Below are positions 36,143-47,301 of a stretch of 64,000 bases of DNA, one piece after another. Under the pieces are notes generated by a model. It had not been told where the DNA came from. It worked only from the letters and a program-made list of their open reading frames with translations, and searched no databases. The DNA is from Bacillota bacterium. Its GTDB lineage: Bacteria > Bacillota > Sulfobacillia > Sulfobacillales > Sulfobacillaceae. How positions within the stretch are numbered: the stretch's first letter is position 1; the number at the start of each line of letters is the position of its first letter. The position numbers were made by a program, and so were the translations under genes. Where the stretch lies: assembly GCA_023511625.1 (NCBI GenBank), contig JAIMBD010000005.1:1-64000 (forward strand). The letters run 5' to 3'.

Positions 36143-37060
36143 TTACCGGCAGGCCGCCCAAACCAGGCGGCTTTGGCACAAGAGGGCCACGAAGCAGCTG
36201 TCGCACCGGGCTTGGGAAAGGGCTTGAAACCTGGTTTGCAGATCCTCCGCCTTAGCCTTCAGCCGCGCGCCCACGGCGTGCACCCGGCGCCGGGAGGACG
36301 GCGCGCCGTCCGACGACGAGGGATCGAGGCCGATGCGCTTGGCCTTGCGCTCGATCTCGGCGCGGAGGTTGTCGAGAAATTCGCGCCCATCGAGGCCGAT
36401 GGTCTCGGCGTCGGCGTTGAGTCGGTGGTACATGGCGTCCATGATGCGCAGAAGGTCGTCGCGCATCTCTACGAGTACGGCCCGGCGTTCGGCGGGCAAC
36501 TCGGGCATGGCGCGCTTGAGGTAGTGCTCGGCAAACGCCTGATGGCGCGACTCGTCCTGCAGGATGCGGCTGGACAGCTTGCCGAATAGCGCCTCCGGCT
36601 GCGACTTGGCGAAGGTCTGATAAAAGTTCTTGGCGAAGATGTCGCTGATCAAGATGCCCCACACCCAGTCGATGCGGTCCCCCTTGCGCAACCGGTTGTG
36701 GTACTGGAGCATCTCTGGCATCTCGCGCAGGTTGACGGGCTGAATCTCCAACCGGTGGTAAAGGCGGGTCAGCACCTCGAAGTGGCGCGCCTCGTCCATC
36801 AAGAAGCTGCTCAAATAAAGCTGCGCCGTGGTCTCACCGGCCATCGCCACTTGGGGCAACGCCACACTGGCCCCGATCATGGCCGACTGTTCGCCGAGGT
36901 AGACCGGACTGAGTAGCCGCCCCAAGGCCCGGGCCTGGACCGGGGTGAATTGCACCGGCCGGTCCCACTCCACGTCTTCGGCCGTCCACTGCGCCTTGAC
37001 GCCTTTGTGGAAGAGCTTGACCAGCAGGTCTTCGTCCAACTTGGGGAACATTTTCAGCAT
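36143..37060 (-). CDS. R2/ferritin-like diiron protein
   Basis: A 305-residue all-alpha protein with ribonucleotide-reductase-R2-type ligand spacing: E57 (LGEQSA), E90xxH93 (DEARH) and E170xxH173 (DESRH), with D140 a candidate for the remaining carboxylate. It resembles R2-like ligand-binding oxidases, but the valine that forms the Tyr-Val crosslink in R2lox is not evident after E57. The C-terminus has several Cys (CDSCFVALLC ... AACR) of unknown role. ATG 37060 is preceded by GGGGGTGG and a good promoter. No class I RNR large subunit is nearby, so an oxidase role is more likely than dNTP synthesis. Confidence 0.75.
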   Translation of the reverse strand: MLKMFPKLDEDLLVKLFHKGVKAQWTAEDVEWDRPVQFTPVQARALGRLLSPVYLGEQSAMIGASVALPQVAMAGETTAQLYLSSFLMDEARHFEVLTRLYHRLEIQPVNLREMPEMLQYHNRLRKGDRIDWVWGILISDIFAKNFYQTFAKSQPEALFGKLSSRILQDESRHQAFAEHYLKRAMPELPAERRAVLVEMRDDLLRIMDAMYHRLNADAETIGLDGREFLDNLRAEIERKAKRIGLDPSSSDGAPSSRRRVHAVGARLKAKAEDLQTRFQALSQARCDSCFVALLCQSRLVWAACR

Positions 37061-38250: not shown

Positions 38251-39069
38251 TCAAACCGGCCTCGGCGACCTTACGGCTTCGTCCAGGTGGCGGCGGAGGA
38301 AGGCCTCGACGGCCGCGGGATGAGAAAGCCTAAAGCGGGCGAAGGTGGGTTCCGACGGCGGACCGACCCGTACCGTCAGGGCGCCCTCGCCCAAAGCCAG
38401 GAAGGCCTCCTCGTCGGTGGCGTCGTCGCCCATCATGATCACCGCCAGCCGGTCTGCCCACTCGGCCCCCGCCTCGCGCCCGAGTAAGGTCACAATCGCC
38501 TCGCCTTTGTCCGGGCCAGGTACCGGCCGAACCTCCCACGCCATTTTGGCCGGGCAGCGCCGGAGCCCGGGGTAGTGGGCGAGGGCCGTGTCCAGGGCCC
38601 GGGTCAAGGGCTCCACGGCTTCGGGAGCCAAAAGGCGCCAGTGTAGAGCCAAGGCACCGTCCTTCACTTCCAGGCGGCTTCCGGGAAACCGAGGCAAGAG
38701 GCGGCCCAGATCTTCGGCCAACTCGGCCAGGGCGGCGTCGATCGCTGGCGGGATGCGCCGCTCGGTGTGCCCACGGTGGCGCATCACGGCTCCGTGCCCG
38801 GCGATGACCGACCATCCTTGGGGGAGGGCCTCGGGAAAGAGCCGGTCGATGTCTTGAATTCCGCGACCGCTGGCCAAGGTCACCCAGGAGGTGGGCGGGC
38901 AGTGGAGCGCCTCAAGGAGTTGGCGCCGGCGCCGGGGGACGGCGACCGCGTCCGGCGTGGGACGGATTTCGGCTAAGGTGCCGTCGATGTCGAAAAACCA
39001 ATAGCGCGGGCGCCCTGCCAGCGCCCGGAGGGCGCCCGCGAGGGCTGGGGCGCCGGCGGGCACCGTCAT
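38251..39069 (-). CDS. otsB: Trehalose-6-phosphate phosphatase
   Basis: A 272-residue HAD-superfamily enzyme with nucleophile motif FFDIDGTLAEI, LASGRG (motif II region), catalytic lysine in DKGEAI and the acidic motif GDDATDEEAF. It removes phosphate from trehalose-6-phosphate. The start codon overlaps the otsA stop (ATGA at 39066-39069), so the pair is translationally coupled. Confidence 0.92.
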   Translation of the reverse strand: MTVPAGAPALAGALRALAGRPRYWFFDIDGTLAEIRPTPDAVAVPRRRRQLLEALHCPPTSWVTLASGRGIQDIDRLFPEALPQGWSVIAGHGAVMRHRGHTERRIPPAIDAALAELAEDLGRLLPRFPGSRLEVKDGALALHWRLLAPEAVEPLTRALDTALAHYPGLRRCPAKMAWEVRPVPGPDKGEAIVTLLGREAGAEWADRLAVIMMGDDATDEEAFLALGEGALTVRVGPPSEPTFARFRLSHPAAVEAFLRRHLDEAVRSPRPV

Positions 39070-40523
39070 GAACTGGCCACCTTCACCACACGGTTTAAGG
39101 CCACCTCGTACAACGTGGCGAGGATGGCGTCGATCCAGCCCTCGAGGTCGTTTTCAGTCAGGTGCCGCTGCATGTCGGCCATGCGGCGCGCCCGTTCGGC
39201 ACGGTCCATGTTGAGCGCCGTGGCCAAGGCGTCGGCAGTGCCCTCCGGATCCAGGGGGTGGATGGGCAGGGCCCCTCCCAGCTCTTGGGCGGCGCCCGCG
39301 CTGCGGCTTAGCAGGAGCACGCCCCGGCGCTCCACCTGAGCCGCGACGAACTCCTTGGCGACGAGGTTCATCCCATCCAAGAGGGAGTGGATGACCACCA
39401 CGTCGGCGGCGCGGAAGAGGGCCATCAAGCGCGGCCGGTCCACCTCGCGGGGGATGGTAAGGAGCAACGGACTTCCCTGCCGTGGCCAGCGTCGGTTGAA
39501 GGCCCGGCTTTGGCGCATCAGGCGCGCGAAGAGCTGGCGGTACTCCGGCACTTCGGTGCGGCTTGGGACCAGCACCTGGAGGAAGGTCACCCGATCTCGC
39601 CAACCCGGATACCGCGTCAAGAAGGCATCCCACGCCGCCAATCGGCGCAGGCATCCCTTGGTGTAGTCGGCCCGCTCTACTGCCACCACCAGCTGATGGC
39701 CCCGGCGGTCGAGGCGACGGCGCAGGCGCAGGCTCAGGCGCTCGACCCGGGGACTTTGCACCAGGGCCTGAATGCCGGCAGTGTCCACGGCAATGGGGAA
39801 GGCGCGCACCCGCACCGTGCGCCCCTGCCACTGCACCTGGCCCTGGGCGAAATCGACGCCGGCCGGCGTCAAGGCGGCCACGGTGGCGAGGAACTGCTCG
39901 GCGTCGGCCGGGGTCTGAAAGCCGAGGACGTCTGCGCCCAAGAGCCCTTGGAGCAGCGCGCGATGCTGCGGCACCAGTTGAAAGACGCGCGCAGGCGGCC
40001 AGGGAATGTGCCAAAAATGGGCGATGGTGACGTCTGGGCGCAGCGCTCGGAGGGTCGAAGGAAAGAGCGCCAGCTGGTAGTCGTGCGAAAAGACCCAGGC
40101 GTCCTTGGGGGCGCGATCGGCCGCAGTGCGGGCGAAGCGCTGGTTGACGGCCGCATAGCGCGCCCACGCGCGCTCGGCAAATTGCGCCCGCTCGATCAGG
40201 AGGTGGCACAGCGGCCACAGTCCTTGATTGGAATACTCGGCGTAGAACCCTTCGACCTCCTCGGGAGCCAAGAACACCCGGTGCAGCCGGTAGCGGGGCC
40301 GGTCGGGGGGAACCCAGCGGACGCCATCGCGCAGGGTATCGCGGTCGGCGCTGCCGCTGCCCCACGCCACCCAGTGCCCTCCCAAGGTTTGCATCAGGGG
40401 GTCGAGGGCGGAAACCACCCCTCCGGCCTTTTGCACCGTGCGAATACCGAACTTGGTGTGCTCGTCGACATACGGTTCGCGCGAGGTCACCACCACCAAG
40501 GGCGGCATCTCCAGCCTGAGCAT
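39066..40523 (-). CDS. otsA: Trehalose-6-phosphate synthase (GT20)
   Basis: A 485-residue GT20 enzyme with the N-terminal loop GGVVSALDPL, FSHDYQLALFPSTLR, FWHIPWPP, GFQTPADAEQFL, VERADYTKG (donor-binding Arg/Lys) and DGMNLVAKEFVAAQ (acidic nucleotide-binding motif). ATG 40523 follows AAAGGAG. It makes trehalose-6-phosphate from a nucleotide-glucose and glucose-6-phosphate. The related glucosylglycerol-phosphate synthases are an alternative, but the coupled otsB supports trehalose. A riboswitch with terminator lies in the 230-base leader. Confidence 0.9.
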   Translation of the reverse strand: MLRLEMPPLVVVTSREPYVDEHTKFGIRTVQKAGGVVSALDPLMQTLGGHWVAWGSGSADRDTLRDGVRWVPPDRPRYRLHRVFLAPEEVEGFYAEYSNQGLWPLCHLLIERAQFAERAWARYAAVNQRFARTAADRAPKDAWVFSHDYQLALFPSTLRALRPDVTIAHFWHIPWPPARVFQLVPQHRALLQGLLGADVLGFQTPADAEQFLATVAALTPAGVDFAQGQVQWQGRTVRVRAFPIAVDTAGIQALVQSPRVERLSLRLRRRLDRRGHQLVVAVERADYTKGCLRRLAAWDAFLTRYPGWRDRVTFLQVLVPSRTEVPEYRQLFARLMRQSRAFNRRWPRQGSPLLLTIPREVDRPRLMALFRAADVVVIHSLLDGMNLVAKEFVAAQVERRGVLLLSRSAGAAQELGGALPIHPLDPEGTADALATALNMDRAERARRMADMQRHLTENDLEGWIDAILATLYEVALNRVVKVASS

Positions 40524-40706
40524 CTTGGGTCTCCTTTCCGCCGCTGGCTGCTCGGGCCCGCCCCGAGAAACGTGCGGCAAGAAAACCGGCCGAATGAAAT
40601 CCTATGCCGGCCTGCCTTGGAATAGTCCCCGGCTTTCTCCTCCCCCAAAGCGGGCGGGCCCGATCCGGCCGCGTCCAGTTGGTAATCGGTCAGGCCTTGC
40701 GGCCCA

Positions 40707-40752
40707 TAAAAGAAGCTACCCTCGGCCGTCGTGGTTTCGCCTGCAGGGTAGC
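40707..40752 (-). terminator. Leader terminator (expression platform) of otsA
   Basis: Minus strand: GCTACCCT (40752-40745) pairs perfectly with AGGGTAGC (40722-40715), followed by TTCTTTTA. It lies just after the riboswitch aptamer and about 185 bases before the otsA start, as expected for a transcription-terminating switch. Confidence 0.7.
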
Positions 40753-40759
40753 GACAATA

Positions 40760-40895
40760 CGCATACGGCAATGCCTTGTGCCCTGCAACGCCTACGAGGT
40801 TAGCTGTCGGGCTAGGGCAGCCGAGATAGCCCCCCGGAACCTCCGGTTAGCCCCAAAGTCGCCGAAGCGACAAAACTTGCGATCCCCCGTTTGCC
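40760..40895 (-). promoter_or_regulatory. c-di-AMP (ydaO/yuaA-type) riboswitch upstream of otsA
   Basis: The minus strand contains CCCGACAGCTAACCTCGTAG (40812-40793), close to the most conserved segment of the ydaO riboswitch. It is preceded by a GGAGGTTCCGGGGGGCTATC element and followed by GCGTTGCAGGG. Paired segments lie on both sides, and a terminator hairpin follows. This class binds cyclic di-AMP and usually turns expression off; known targets include potassium uptake and osmolyte genes. The identification is by sequence memory and was not covariance-scored; the ends are approximate. The remaining bases of 40524-41111 contain no gene. Confidence 0.75.
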
Positions 40896-41111
40896 CTTCT
40901 GGGCAATTCGGCGAAAAACCACAAAGTTACCGCGCTTGATCCAATATCCCAATATTTTCCTCTGGATGCGGGTGGCCTTCGGCCAACCCCGACATCTGTT
41001 CTCAGGATACCGAAAACTGGGGATTTCAGCAAGGGGCTCGTCGGTCGAGGGCCTGGCCGGTCGTGCGGCGCCTGACCCCGGGCGCAAGGGCGCCCCTGGC
41101 GCTGTCGCCTG

Positions 41112-41684
41112 TTAGCGGGGTTGGGAGGGGAGCGGGATCTCGTCGAAGTCGGAGACTTCCTTTAGGGGCCATCCCAGTTCGCGCGCGGTCTCGCGGTAGA
41201 TGCGCCGCACGGTGGGCGAAAAGACCACGAACGTCACCAGTTCAAGATGCCGTCGGGGATAGCCGAAGACGGTGCTCAGGGCGATGCGGGTGGCCTCCCC
41301 GGCCGGGTAGCCGTAGGCGCCGATGCTCAGGGCGGGGAAGGCCACGTCGGGCACGGCCAACGCCTCTGCCTGATCCAGAGAGGATCGATAGGCCGAGGCC
41401 AAAAGGCGCGCCTCGTCGTGCCCGCCCCCGCGCCAGATGGGGCCGACGGCGTGGATGACGTACCGGGCCGGCAGTCGGAACCCCGGCGTGACGCGGGCCT
41501 CGCCGGTGGGGCACCCCCCGATGCGCCGGCACGCCTCAGACAATTCCGGCCCCGCCGCCCGATGAATGGCTCCGTCCACGCCTCCGCCTCCGGCCAGGGC
41601 GCTGTTGGCGGCGTTGACGATGGCGCTGCCGGGATATCGCGTGATGTCGCCCTCGACCAAGAAGGCGGTCCATCCTTGGGCCAT
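41112..41684 (-). CDS. Macrodomain protein (O-acetyl-ADP-ribose deacetylase type)
   Basis: A 190-residue macrodomain of the MacroD/YmdB group with VEGDITRYPGSAIVNAAN, GGGGVDGAIHRAAG, PTGEARVTPGF (substrate loop), YVIHAVGP and FPALSIGAYGYPAGEATRIA. ATG 41684 follows GGAAGGGGGAC. Such enzymes hydrolyse O-acetyl-ADP-ribose or remove ADP-ribose from proteins. The C-terminal 40 residues (RRIYRETARELGWPLKE...) extend slightly past the core fold. Confidence 0.92.
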   Translation of the reverse strand: MAQGWTAFLVEGDITRYPGSAIVNAANSALAGGGGVDGAIHRAAGPELSEACRRIGGCPTGEARVTPGFRLPARYVIHAVGPIWRGGGHDEARLLASAYRSSLDQAEALAVPDVAFPALSIGAYGYPAGEATRIALSTVFGYPRRHLELVTFVVFSPTVRRIYRETARELGWPLKEVSDFDEIPLPSQPR

Positions 41685-41779
41685 GCCTGCCGTCCCCCTT
41701 CCGTTCAGGCCGTGACGTCTTATTTTCCTTTCCATTAGTTTGGCGCAGGGCTCTGTCCTGTGCAAGCGCCTGGCCCGCT

Positions 41780-43531
41780 TCAGACCGGCTGTAGGCGACC
41801 TTGGGCCGGGACGGCCGCCATCTCGCTTAAGGCCTGGAGAATGCCGAGGTGTGAGAACGCCTGCGGGAAGTTGCCCCGCGGCACGCCGGTGGCCTGGTCG
41901 ACATGCTCGCCCAAAAGTCCCAGGCTCGTCCGGGCGGCCAACACCGGTTCCAGGGCGCGCGCGGCCTCGGCCGTGCGGCCTTGGCGCCAGTACACGCGGG
42001 CGAGCCAGGTGTTGGCCAAGACGAAGGGGTGGGCGGCGGCCCCGAACATGTCGCGGCGGTAGCGGTACACCCAGCCGTTGTCCACCAGATCGGTCTCGAT
42101 GCGCTGGAGGGTCGCCTGAAAGCGCGGGGCATCGACGGCACAGTACTCGTAGAGCGGCAGGAGCAAGAGGGCTGCGTCGACGGCGGAGCCTCCAAAGCGC
42201 TGGACGTAATGGTCTCCGGAGGGGTCGGTGCCCCACCGCTCGATGGCGGCCCGCACCCGCAGGGCCTCCTGTTCCCAGCGCAGCGCCTGCTGCCCGTGAC
42301 CCAGGCGGCGGCCGATGCGGGCGCCGCGGTCCAGCGCCACCCAGCACATCAGCTTGGAGTGGGTGTAGTGGGCGTCTTGCCCGCGGAACTCCCACAAGCT
42401 CGCGTCGCGCTCGCGCCAGTGGGCCCCGCTCCACTCCACCAGGCGGACGATGCGGGGCCAGTGCTCGGCGGCGAAGTCCCAATCGTCGCTGGCCTCCAGG
42501 TACCGGTGGAGGCTGGCCAAAAGGTCCCCTTCGATATCGAGTTGCCGTTGGTCGGCCGCACCGTTGCCCTCACGGCAGGGCCAGGATCCGGCGTGGCCCG
42601 GCAGCCATTCCAGATCCCGCTCGGCTGGCACCAGCGAGCCGTCCACCCGCACCAAGGGAGCGTCGAACGGAGCGGCCTCGGGCGCGACCCGGTTTAAGAG
42701 GAAGGCGAGGGTGGCGCGGGCTGCCTCCAGGGCTCCCGCGCCGGTCCAGGCCTCGGCCACGTAGGCGGCGTCGCGGATCCAGGTGTAGCGATAATCCCAT
42801 TGGCGCGTGCCGCCTACCTCTTCTGGCAGCGAGGTCGTGGGCGCCGCGATGACGGCGTGGGTCGGGGCGTAGGTCAGCCCTTGCAACACCAGCGCCGAAC
42901 GGGCAAAGGCTTCGGGATGGGGCCCGTCGTAGGGTATCTGCCGGCGCCGCCAGTGATGGGCAGCTGTGGCCACCGTCTCCTCAGGTCCGCGGTTGTGACC
43001 GACGGCGCCGAGTTCTACGAGGTAGCGCCCGGGACGAAGGGCCCACACGATCTCCTCGCTCGACCCCAGGCGGGGGGGAGGGAGCGGCCGCCCCTTGAGG
43101 TTTCGCACCACCAATTCCAGGTGCAGGGGCTCGAGCGGATGCCGGAGGTCGAGCCCGCGGGCAGTGGCGCGGACCGCAGCCGGAACCAGCCCGTAGTCAA
43201 AAGCCAGCTTCAGGTGAAGGCGCAGCGGGCGTCCTGCGGCGAGCGCGCGGCAAAGCACCGGCCCCTTGGGGTCGAGGAAGTCGGTGATGGATGCCGCCTG
43301 GGCCCCCTCGCCTACTCGGGTCTCGATCACGTTGGTGCCGTCGAGGTAGCGCTGGGTGACTTTCGCCGGGCCGTCCCAGGCCACTGCGAAAAAGCCGTGG
43401 CGCCGTCCGCCCAAGATGCGGGTCAGCACCGAGGGGCTGTCGAAGCGCGGGTAGGGAAACCAGTCGATGGAGGTGTCGGGACCCACCAATGCTGCCGTGT
43501 GCCCATTGGAGAGAAAGCCGTAAAAGTGCAT
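41780..43531 (-). CDS. GH15 family glycosidase (glucoamylase/trehalase-like)
   Basis: A 583-residue cytoplasmic-looking enzyme without signal peptide. The N-terminal beta-sandwich starts GFLSNGHTAALVGPDTSIDW. The (alpha/alpha)6 barrel contains RQWDYRYTWIRDAAYV, GNGAADQRQLDIEGDLL and GLLGEHVDQATGVPRGNFPQAFSHLG. ATG 43531 follows GGAGG at a rather long spacing. GH15 covers glucoamylases, glucodextranases and bacterial trehalases. Given otsAB nearby, a trehalase role is attractive but unproven. The usual YGE at the LD-x-YGE motif is EGD here, which should be checked. Confidence 0.88.
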   Translation of the reverse strand: MHFYGFLSNGHTAALVGPDTSIDWFPYPRFDSPSVLTRILGGRRHGFFAVAWDGPAKVTQRYLDGTNVIETRVGEGAQAASITDFLDPKGPVLCRALAAGRPLRLHLKLAFDYGLVPAAVRATARGLDLRHPLEPLHLELVVRNLKGRPLPPPRLGSSEEIVWALRPGRYLVELGAVGHNRGPEETVATAAHHWRRRQIPYDGPHPEAFARSALVLQGLTYAPTHAVIAAPTTSLPEEVGGTRQWDYRYTWIRDAAYVAEAWTGAGALEAARATLAFLLNRVAPEAAPFDAPLVRVDGSLVPAERDLEWLPGHAGSWPCREGNGAADQRQLDIEGDLLASLHRYLEASDDWDFAAEHWPRIVRLVEWSGAHWRERDASLWEFRGQDAHYTHSKLMCWVALDRGARIGRRLGHGQQALRWEQEALRVRAAIERWGTDPSGDHYVQRFGGSAVDAALLLLPLYEYCAVDAPRFQATLQRIETDLVDNGWVYRYRRDMFGAAAHPFVLANTWLARVYWRQGRTAEAARALEPVLAARTSLGLLGEHVDQATGVPRGNFPQAFSHLGILQALSEMAAVPAQGRLQPV

Positions 43532-43646
43532 CCGCGCGTCTGTCCTCCGTCCCGCACAACGTATGCGCCCCGGGCGGGGCGGCAATTCAGCAACCATGGT
43601 TCGACGTCCGCGGCCAAAATCCTTGTGGGTTCGGCAAGAAATTGCT

Positions 43647-43674: not shown

Positions 43675-46600
43675 CTAGAGCAGGATATGCCAGAGCGTGG
43701 GCGGGCGAGCACTCCCTGTGCCGGGAAATGCCAGCGGCGCCCGGTACCAGCGGCCTAAGACTCCTGCCAGCACCGCCTCGACTCCGGGGTGCCCGGTCGG
43801 TCCCGGGGCCCAAAGCGCGCCGGGGTCGCTCAGCTGAGGCGCAAGACGATCGGCCAGCTGGCCGGGGTCGGAGGCGCGGAGGGTCTTAAGGCGGCGCACA
43901 AGGTCGGGGGGAAGCCGCAGTCCGGCGAAGTCGGCCGGTGGGCCCACCTCCACAGGAATGATCCAGGGATGGCGCCGAAGCCAGCGCACCAGGGCCGGGG
44001 TGTCGTTGCCGTGGGGGTCCCAGTACAGGATGGGGCCTTCGGCTGGGGTGTAGGCAAGTTCGGCTACCGGCGCCCCGTCGCCGGGTCGCGCCCCGTCCAA
44101 GAGGTAGACGGCATGGGGGCTCAAGGAGCCCGGCCAGTCGCTGACGGCCGTGGCGATGTCGAGCGCTGTGGCCGCCCGGTCTTGACCTTGGAACGGAGTG
44201 AGGACGGTGTACCCGTGGGTCGTAAGCCAATGGACCACGGCCGGCGCGATGGCGGCCGGGCCGCCCACCACGAAGACCCGGCGCACGCCGAGGGCGACGA
44301 GGGCTTGTCGGTCTGCGGCCGCAAGGTGGTCCGAAGGGGTCAGGAGGAGCGGGGCATCAAGGCGCCGGGCGAGAGGCGCGGCGGCCACGGCGTCGGGCGG
44401 GGTGTGGCCCGATGGGCCGGCCGCGGCCAAGACGGCGCTTTGAGCCCCTGCCGGGAAGGTCATGACGGCGATTTCGGCGGCCCGATGGACGCGGTCGCCG
44501 TCGAGGCTGAAGGCAAAGGGCGGGGGGGCATCGCTGATGGCAAAGCAGGTGAGAGCAGGAGTGCGGGCGACCATTCTGCCCGGGGCCACGCGGGTGGGGA
44601 ACAGGGGGAACCAGCGCCGGGCCGGCGCGCTGTAAACCCAGAGGCTGAAGGGGTGGACGAAGCCAGGAGGCGCCGCGATGGTCAGCCGGTAACGCGCGGG
44701 GTAGTCGCGGAGGGCTCCCGCCGCCCGAACCACGAAAGCCCACCGGAGGTGTCCGACCGGGAGCGGGCGCGGCAGCGTGGCGGCGGCCGCCACCGAGAGC
44801 AACGGAGGGTGTGGGCCGGCGCTCGGCCCCGGCGTGGCCCGGACGATCCAGCCAGAAAACCCGGCCCCGGGCGGTGCCTTAGGTCCGGGGGCTGGTGCCG
44901 GCGCCGGGGGCGGAGCCGGCGGGCCACTGGCCACCCAGGTCACGGTGGCTTCGGCGGTGACTCCGGGGGCTTGAGCGAGATAGGTGACGGGGCCCGGCGT
45001 GGAGTTGGAGACGGTGATGGAGGCCGTGCCAAGGGCGTCGGTGACGGCCGTGCCGAGGGCGCCGAACACCACCGGGACTCCGGCTTGGGGGGTGCCGGTG
45101 GCGTCTTGGAGGGTCGCTGTCAGCGTGACCGCCGCTCCGACCGGTGCGGTCGGGGTTTGGGCCGACAAGGATAGGGAAGGGCCTTTAAAGGCCGCCACTC
45201 CGTTCGGAGTCAGGGCGTAGAGCCAACGGCCGTGGGGGCTTAGGGCGAGGCTTTCCACGGGGCCGGTGCTCTGGCCTGCACCGAGGGTCACGGGGTCGAG
45301 CGGCACCGTGCCCAAAAGGCCTTGAGTCACCGAGACCACCGTCAAGGCAGAGGCGTTGGGGTCGGTGGCGAGAAGATATCCGCCGTCGGGGGTGACAGCG
45401 GCAGGGCCCGCAAGGCCGCTCGCTTGGGCCGAAAGCCAGGGCGCCCCTTGGGGTCGAAGCCCCACCAGTTGGCCGCCGCCTATGGCCACGACGCCCGGTC
45501 CGGCCGTAAGCAGGCTCGCGGCTCCGGAGAAGGGCAGGGGCGTGGCCGTACCGCCGGGCCAGGCGACGAGATTCCCGCCTTCCAAGGCCGCAACGCCGCC
45601 TTGCCAGGGGGCAAGCGCCGTGGCGACGGCGCCGCCGTAGGTGGCAGCGGTGGCTGTAAGCGTTCCGGTGGGCGTGTATACGGCGATGGCGGGCGGGTTT
45701 GCCACGGCCACCGCCAACGCGCCGTTCGGCAAGCGCGCCAGCCCGCCGGTGGGCTGTGGCGAGACGGGGAAGGTCGAAGGGACTGCCGGTTGGATCGTGG
45801 GCAGGCGGTCGATGCCGCTCGCAGCCGGGATGTAGAGGGCGTCTTGCGTGGCTTGCAGCTCGGCGGAAAAGCTGTTGAGCGGCGGCAGGGCCAAGTCGTT
45901 TAGGGGCAGGGTGGCCGGGCCTTCCCCAAAGTCAGCCCAGAGCAAGCGGTGGCCGGTAGGGGCCAACACCACCCCACCGTTGGCGCTCAAGGGCCCTTGG
46001 GGAGCCGGCCCCCCAAGGGCGGTCAGTCCCCCTGGGTTCGGGCGGTAGACCATCAACACCGGCGAGCCTTGGGCGTTTTGCCCGAGGACGTAAAGGCCGT
46101 CGGCGCCGAGTGCGAGGGATCCCGGCAAGGAAGTGGTGGCGTCACCGGCTGGGGGAAGGAGGGTGGGGCCGGTGATGGCAGGGGCGTACACCGCGTCGGG
46201 CACGTACTGCACGCCGCCGGGCTGGTTCACGGTGGAGGCCTCTTCGACCCAGAGCCCTCCTTGGCCGTCCACGGCCACACCTACGGGAATGCCGGTCTCG
46301 TCTGGGAGTACCGCCACGCTGGCCGTCCCGCTGGAGGGGTTGACGGTCACCCGCATCACGGCGGGGGTGTTGGCCGTGGCCGAAGGGATAAAAAGCACGG
46401 TGTCGTCGCCTACGGCAAGGACCCCGGCCGGCCCTGAAGGCGGGTCAGGCAGGGCGATGCGGTCGGGGAGAGTGTCGGCCGGAGCAAAGAGGCTCACCCA
46501 GGAGAGGGAAGCGGCATCGACGGCGTAACAGGTGTTGGATCGCGGACCCACCGTAAGGTACAGCGGAGTGTTGGGGTCGGTGGCCAACAGCGAGAGCGTG

Positions 46601-47007
46601 TCTTGCGTCGGGGAGGGTGCGAGGGTCAATCGCCAGATGGCGCCGGTGGCGGGGTTGAGGACCACCGCCGTTCCCCCCTTGGGAGCGACGGCGAGGTCGG
46701 GACCGAGGTTTCCGGGGTTGTCTAGGCTCCACGACCCGGTAGGTACCCAGGCGGAGGCGGTCTCGGTGAAAAGAGTCAGCGTCCCGGCCTCGTCCTCGGT
46801 CAGGGCGGCCTGGGTGAGGGGATCGTAGACGGCCTGGATGGGGGCGCTCGGCAACGGCAAAAAGCGGGTAAAGCGGTAGCCGGCGGCAAGATCGGGCGGC
46901 ACCGCAGACGACTCGGCGCGGGCCGCTAGGCCTTTGGGGACGAGGCCCGTTCCCAACAGCAAAAGGGCCAAGACGACGGTGGTCCAACGGAAAAGACGCC
47001 GTAACAC
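43675..47007 (-). CDS. Secreted beta-propeller/Ig protein with CWB2 cell-wall-binding repeats
   Basis: A 1110-residue exported protein. A signal peptide (VVLALLLLGTGLVPKGLAARA) is followed by about 620 residues of propeller-like repeats rich in G, A, P and L. Next come a big/invasin-type Ig domain (SLSAQTPTAPVGAAVTLTATLQDATGTPQAGVPV), a P/A linker, a beta domain, and at about 870-1100 cell-wall-binding-repeat-2 units (APLLLTPSDHLAAADRQALVALGVRRVFVVGG in outline; key residues LLT, L--LGV--V-VVGG). CWB2 repeats hold S-layer-type proteins of Bacillota to the wall polymer. GTG 47007 is chosen because GGAGGG lies seven bases upstream. It stands alone. Confidence 0.83.
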   Translation of the reverse strand: MLRRLFRWTTVVLALLLLGTGLVPKGLAARAESSAVPPDLAAGYRFTRFLPLPSAPIQAVYDPLTQAALTEDEAGTLTLFTETASAWVPTGSWSLDNPGNLGPDLAVAPKGGTAVVLNPATGAIWRLTLAPSPTQDTLSLLATDPNTPLYLTVGPRSNTCYAVDAASLSWVSLFAPADTLPDRIALPDPPSGPAGVLAVGDDTVLFIPSATANTPAVMRVTVNPSSGTASVAVLPDETGIPVGVAVDGQGGLWVEEASTVNQPGGVQYVPDAVYAPAITGPTLLPPAGDATTSLPGSLALGADGLYVLGQNAQGSPVLMVYRPNPGGLTALGGPAPQGPLSANGGVVLAPTGHRLLWADFGEGPATLPLNDLALPPLNSFSAELQATQDALYIPAASGIDRLPTIQPAVPSTFPVSPQPTGGLARLPNGALAVAVANPPAIAVYTPTGTLTATAATYGGAVATALAPWQGGVAALEGGNLVAWPGGTATPLPFSGAASLLTAGPGVVAIGGGQLVGLRPQGAPWLSAQASGLAGPAAVTPDGGYLLATDPNASALTVVSVTQGLLGTVPLDPVTLGAGQSTGPVESLALSPHGRWLYALTPNGVAAFKGPSLSLSAQTPTAPVGAAVTLTATLQDATGTPQAGVPVVFGALGTAVTDALGTASITVSNSTPGPVTYLAQAPGVTAEATVTWVASGPPAPPPAPAPAPGPKAPPGAGFSGWIVRATPGPSAGPHPPLLSVAAAATLPRPLPVGHLRWAFVVRAAGALRDYPARYRLTIAAPPGFVHPFSLWVYSAPARRWFPLFPTRVAPGRMVARTPALTCFAISDAPPPFAFSLDGDRVHRAAEIAVMTFPAGAQSAVLAAAGPSGHTPPDAVAAAPLARRLDAPLLLTPSDHLAAADRQALVALGVRRVFVVGGPAAIAPAVVHWLTTHGYTVLTPFQGQDRAATALDIATAVSDWPGSLSPHAVYLLDGARPGDGAPVAELAYTPAEGPILYWDPHGNDTPALVRWLRRHPWIIPVEVGPPADFAGLRLPPDLVRRLKTLRASDPGQLADRLAPQLSDPGALWAPGPTGHPGVEAVLAGVLGRWYRAPLAFPGTGSARPPTLWHILL

Positions 47008-47301
47008 GCGCAATCCCTCCTAGCGCTAGTTATCTGGAGTCCGAAATGTTGGTGGGACGAATCGAGAATTGGGGAAAAGATCCGAGAATCCTCTTTTTGG
47101 GAGGAGGAAATTGTGCCTATAGGCAATCGGAGGGATGGTCGGGGAAGACGCCATGAGATGTTTTTATTGCATGATTATCGAATGCGAGATTAGAGAAATG
47201 TATAATGGCCCAAGGCTGCGGAGTTGTCCGCGTGGAGCCTCCCCGCGCGTTGGGAGGAGATCCAGGGTGGCAGCCAACCGTAGTGCAAGGAGGACAACGC
47301 C

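Follow-up and report, generated by a model that had tools for sequence, protein, structure and literature searches.

A predicted c-di-AMP riboswitch of the ydaO/yuaA class in the leader of the otsA-otsB trehalose synthesis genes of a Sulfobacillaceae bacterium

The window, as we call the whole 64,000-nt stretch of DNA that was analysed, carries a trehalose synthesis operon on its minus strand. The first gene, otsA (39066-40523), encodes a trehalose-6-phosphate synthase of family GT20 (PF00982, 364 bits); its ATG is at 40523, with an AAAGGAG ribosome-binding site. The second, otsB (38251-39069), encodes a trehalose-6-phosphate phosphatase (PF02358, 80 bits; TIGR00685, 119.5 bits against a cut-off of 68). 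The otsB ATG overlaps the otsA stop codon (ATGA), so that GT20 synthase and HAD phosphatase lie in one operon. OtsA scored 430 bits against TIGR02400, below the cut-off of 565 for that equivalog model, so its sugar-donor specificity is not assured. Upstream, a macro-domain gene (41115-41789, minus strand; PF01661, 148 bits) separates the otsA leader from a GH15 trehalase-like gene (41783-43546, minus strand; PF00723 and PF19291 TREH_N). The latter scored 527 bits against NF041084 TreH1, below the cut-off of 820, and is not under the riboswitch described here. Further features on the same strand are a gene for an AurF-like (PF11583) diiron protein at 36143-37060, with similar DNA following otsB in another genome of the genus (G009), and a long open reading frame at 43675-47013 whose 1112-aa product has, by eye, an N-terminal signal-like stretch and C-terminal repeats resembling cell-wall-binding repeats.

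An Rfam search found a match to RF00379, the c-di-AMP (ydaO/yuaA) riboswitch, in the otsA leader at 40923-40774 (minus strand), with a score of 69.2 bits and an E value of 5.6e-14 for 64 kb. It was the sole Rfam match in the window to reach its gathering threshold. The RF00379 gathering score is 38 bits, well below that of the aptamer before otsA, and model positions 1-134 are all covered. A preliminary description, made from the sequence, had claimed a ydaO-type core in the otsA-otsB leader and proposed this covariance model search as its check, which the element passed by a wide margin; the core string CCCGACAGCTAACCTCGTAG lies at 40811-40792 (minus strand), and the order and strand of the two genes downstream are likewise as claimed. 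The span given there ends at 40900 and misses the 5′ strand of P1, whose CGCC (40913-40910) pairs with GGCG (40792-40789) in the pair table.

Covariation was examined in 12 aptamers with the window structure as reference; nine of the 12 have a definite or probable otsA link. The Rfam pairing of the window aptamer left 90% of cells paired across this alignment, compared with only 38-51% when structures were slid by 1-3 columns. Two-sided changes occurred at 10 helix pairs, a count as high in none of 500 shuffles; the short hairpins 4 and 6 aligned poorly. By covariance-model score and helix pairing, membership of the element in the c-di-AMP (ydaO/yuaA, RF00379) class is confirmed.

Past the aptamer comes an intrinsic terminator (40708-40752, minus strand). 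Its arms GCUACCCU (40752-40745) and AGGGUAGC (40722-40715) form an 8-bp perfect stem of -17.3 kcal/mol, followed by UUCUUUU (40714-40708). Dinucleotide shuffling of the 250-nt leader gave such a stem, with at least six T in the seven positions after it, in only 5 of 3000 cases, which upholds the earlier placement of a terminator downstream of the core. Its loop is large compared with that of a standard terminator. A consensus scan of 40400-41200 found no promoter and no terminator; it allows terminator loops of 3-8 only and missed this one because the loop exceeds that limit. By eye there is a weak TTGCTG-17-TATCCT at 41032-41004, which we do not claim as a promoter. Nearer to otsA, about 60 nt before it, a weaker hairpin of CCGGC and GCCGG (-8.1 kcal/mol) is followed by UUUUCUUG (40586-40610, minus strand), possibly a tandem terminator.

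Folding and a co-transcriptional series of minimum free energies also predict an antiterminator, an element absent from the preliminary description. Its 5′ strand, UCGUAGGCGUUGCAGGG (40781-40797, minus strand), includes the entire P1 3′ strand and adjacent bases, and its 3′ strand, CCCUGCAGGCGAAACCACGA (40729-40748, minus strand), overlaps the terminator 5′ arm and includes its CCCU bases. The duplex is worth -20.0 kcal/mol, versus -12.0 ± 2.7 for shuffled partners, 0.9% of which were as low. When the platform was folded alone, the antiterminator was the best fold of the nascent RNA from a length of 59 nt up to the appearance of the terminator 3′ arm, after which the terminator is slightly favoured (-30.1 versus -28.5 kcal/mol). 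Because it contains the whole P1 3′ strand, the antiterminator would compete with the ligand-bound aptamer, and in the models it excludes the terminator; this mutual exclusion gives the layout of a classic transcriptional OFF switch. For the 411-nt leader as a whole, the minimum free energy did not improve on that of shuffles (z -1.2), an uninformative measure for a leader so rich in G+C.

The genome appears equipped to make the ligand. It has one DAC-domain gene (141.8 bits, G000:C10) of the membrane CdaA type, followed by a CdaR-like gene, and one 7TMR-HDED gene for a PgpH-type phosphodiesterase (117.6 bits, G000:C37), and from this gene content the organism is predicted to produce c-di-AMP. 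There are five RF00379 matches in all, the four besides the otsA copy scoring 36.9-90.5 bits. The strongest (L001, 90.5 bits) precedes a gene for a 3D-domain protein, one of two cell-wall genes in this set. Another (L003, 43.1 bits; positions 1501-1653 of the locus, minus strand, or G000:C20:26621-26773) precedes a gene for a 188-aa possible lipoprotein, which had no Pfam match. The third (L004, 38.0 bits) lies before kdpF and then kdpA of kdpFABC, with kdpF read by eye and the KdpA family match made on the orthologous locus L151. The fourth (L005, 36.9 bits, just under the gathering score) lies before a peptidoglycan-binding NlpC/P60 gene. Potassium import and the cell wall are established targets of ydaO riboswitches; judged by the placement of the aptamers, this genome puts potassium import, cell wall and trehalose under one signal.

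We looked for the same arrangement at other otsA genes. In G009, a sister species, an aptamer 88% identical to that of the window over 166 nt keeps the GCAGGG arm. Its contig ends 12 nt downstream and the G009 otsA contig begins 27 nt before the ATG; the two contig ends do not overlap, and the 1.5 kb upstream of the aptamer is unlike the window. It is probable from these ends that the aptamer adjoins otsA in this species too. In G001, from another family of the order, RF00379 (49.3 bits) lies before the second otsA (G001:C7). No U-rich terminator was found in that leader, so it may act on translation instead. In the scan of the order, the positives were G001:C7 and the window itself; no aptamer was found at 30 of the 31 other otsA loci with readable upstream DNA, L145 being truncated. 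Because of these 30 loci, the link appears, on the sequences sampled, not to be ancestral to the order but limited to a few lineages. A phylum-wide scan of 47 otsA upstream regions gave RF00379 in six (82.7-93.1 bits), one from each of the six genomes sampled in an unrelated genus, g33 of family f21; none of the three sampled genomes from other genera of that family had it before otsA. A GC-rich hairpin and T-rich tail follow the aptamer in all six g33 leaders. When the ydaO label is mapped onto a tree of 55 OtsA proteins, strongly supported branches force a minimum of two changes, compared with 8.5 expected by shuffling. This suggests either that the otsA link arose at least twice, or that it was lost very often.

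Our interpretation, which we hold to be very probably correct, is that a c-di-AMP riboswitch of the ydaO/yuaA class turns off otsA-otsB transcription. Bound c-di-AMP would hold P1 closed and make its 3′ strand unavailable to the antiterminator; the terminator at 40752-40708 would then form and RNA polymerase would stop about 185 nt before otsA. At low c-di-AMP, 40797-40781 would pair with 40748-40729, occupying the terminator 5′ arm, and polymerase would read through into otsAB. We infer c-di-AMP binding, the lowering of otsAB transcription and the physiological trigger with its osmotic logic; the OFF direction follows from the anatomy of the platform, in which ligand-induced closing of P1 does away with the antiterminator and makes termination more likely, and from tested relatives. 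Among these are B. subtilis ydaO, described in PMC9960051, and the ydaO-type riboswitch of B. thuringiensis kdpFABC, where termination rose from 27% to 63% with c-di-AMP (PMC6488665). The preliminary description had likewise proposed that low c-di-AMP relieves termination, and the modelled exclusivity of P1, antiterminator and terminator supports it. The likely use would be compatible-solute control, with trehalose made as c-di-AMP falls and the kdp potassium uptake genes released along with otsAB. That such control makes sense had been offered earlier as an argument; it is not evidence by itself, although it turned out to be consistent with the results.

The aptamer scores less than the genome's best RF00379 copy, as might a chance or decayed match to a functionless relic, but that idea is barely credible for a full-length match with so low an E value, whose helices are preserved through two-sided changes and which a sister species retains at 88% identity. 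Output could also pass through translation initiation, or through the second hairpin (40610-40586) and its UUUUCUUG rather than the terminator at 40752-40708. That hairpin and T-run are present, the G001 leader lacks an evident terminator, and the ydaO-type riboswitch of C. glutamicum nlpC seems to act on translation (PMC9960051). Against this, the 5′ arm of the first terminator is also part of an antiterminator in which the P1 3′ strand is included, the anatomy expected of a transcriptional switch; the ribosome-binding site is about 240 nt past the aptamer; and terminators are present in all six g33 otsA leaders. We consider this route to otsAB very unlikely and retain control through the terminator at 40752-40708.

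The ligand itself needs weighing, since the core departs from consensus at some junction positions. Most of the conserved bases at the two ligand sites are kept (CCGAAU, CGGGGGA and CCCGnCAGCUAACC), but the window aptamer reads GGGGCUAA/UAG where the consensus is GGGGUGAA/GAA, and GG replaces the consensus UA before the last hairpin. The GGGGCUAA...UAG form occurs in three otsA leaders (window, L150 and L146). The full form is also found in the kdp aptamer L151 of the genus, while the L004 kdp aptamer has CUUA. Among the readable aptamers of the order, the CU..UAG junction is confined to these otsA leaders and the kdp leaders L004 and L151; the pattern is unreadable in about 31 weaker aptamers, making the frequency of the variant a lower bound. 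According to a review, U43, U71 and A72 are among the ligand contacts of the class (PMC7288161); with that numbering mapped onto the window aptamer by eye, the departures could alter its affinity. The otsA and kdp aptamers of the genus might then be a ydaO variant whose remodelled junction changes ligand affinity or specificity, which we think quite improbable. If it were so, the compatible-solute and potassium genes would respond to a different level of signal, or to a different nucleotide, from that read by the cell-wall genes beside them in the cell. In a stronger form, the remodelled core would bind something else, or bind with a greatly altered affinity, sensing a related nucleotide and not c-di-AMP. 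The restriction of the CU..UAG form to otsA and kdp leaders speaks for this. However, the first change is a clean swap of U-A to C-G common to many other aptamers of the order, where the intermediates CGAA/UAG and CGAA/GAG also occur; the remaining changes each occur alone in other aptamers (UUAA in L252 and L259, UAA in many); the same junction form precedes kdpFABC, a tested c-di-AMP target in other bacteria (PMC6488665); and c-di-AMP enzymes are encoded in the same genome. A changed ligand was given low weight on account of the swap, its intermediates and the kdp leaders, and is highly improbable. That the swap and the single changes occur elsewhere, and that the full form recurs in a kdp aptamer, argues for a lineage-specific core with c-di-AMP still the predicted ligand, though affinity may differ.

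Other likely osmolyte genes follow RF00379 aptamers in related genomes. Across 24 genomes of the window's family, every strong match to sucrose-phosphatase (PF05116, E 1e-33 or better) had a listed RF00379 aptamer about 1.4 kb upstream on the same strand. A GT4 glycosyltransferase gene precedes that of the S6PP-family phosphatase, giving the order aptamer, GT4, S6PP. Examples are L012, L015, L017, L020, L023-L027, L029 and L030, and further G012:C141:18233-20325 and G028:C1:2400278-2402350. The GT4 and phosphatase pair gave only a weak, sub-threshold NCBIfam match to sucrose-phosphate synthase; the conserved operon likely represents disaccharide osmolyte synthesis under c-di-AMP control. No strong PF05116 match was found in G000, G009 or G001, where otsA is linked or probably linked to an aptamer. 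In two genomes an aptamer lies before a gene for a ProV-type betaine/proline ABC ATPase (L255 and L267). The order seems to deploy the c-di-AMP riboswitch on any osmolyte pathway that happens to be available, and control of disaccharide synthesis by riboswitch appears to be a recurring feature of this group. Other genes behind RF00379 were those for phosphosulfolactate synthase (ComA, PF02679) in three genomes (L223, L235 and L236) and an ABC permease (PF00528) in 12 (L243, L244, L247, L251, L253, L258, L261, L265, L266, L268, L270 and L272). Control by c-di-AMP of sulfolactate, an osmolyte or cofactor precursor, would be unusual.

The leaders of B. subtilis ydaO (kimA) and ktrAB resemble that of the window in aptamer sequence and fold, P1-coupled terminator and predicted OFF logic, but their targets are in potassium transport rather than trehalose synthesis, and the J1/J3 junction bases are CU/UAG in the window versus UG/GAA in the ydaO/yuaA class. 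The kdpFABC riboswitch of B. thuringiensis BMB171 (PMC6488665) likewise has an aptamer followed by an intrinsic terminator, roughly 140-185 nt ahead of the first gene; it is a tested OFF switch and controls a potassium pump, whereas the window switch precedes otsAB. The ydaO-type riboswitches of nlpC and rpf genes in Actinobacteria (PMC9960051, PMC10117811) share the aptamer class but have cell-wall hydrolase targets. The GT4-S6PP operons of the Sulfobacillus group have the same aptamer class and, like the window, a likely disaccharide-synthesis pair; they use GT4 and a sucrose-phosphatase family enzyme, the window a GT20 OtsA and OtsB.

It is background knowledge that c-di-AMP controls potassium and osmolyte transport. 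A review also places c-di-AMP riboswitches near osmoprotectant-synthesis genes (PMC7288161); the aptamer class, the mechanism and a general tie to osmoprotectant synthesis are already known. In the open-access literature we found no paper joining ydaO with otsA or trehalose control, a link that primary surveys may list. The type of switch is ordinary and the otsA target less familiar; in this case the controlled gene can be named, the anatomy of the switch is complete, and the otsA link is seen in two lineages or more. In this bacterium, trehalose is probably made as c-di-AMP levels drop. Together with the sucrose-phosphatase operons of sister genera, this suggests that acidophilic bacteria of the Sulfobacillus group use c-di-AMP to control the synthesis of disaccharide osmolytes directly.
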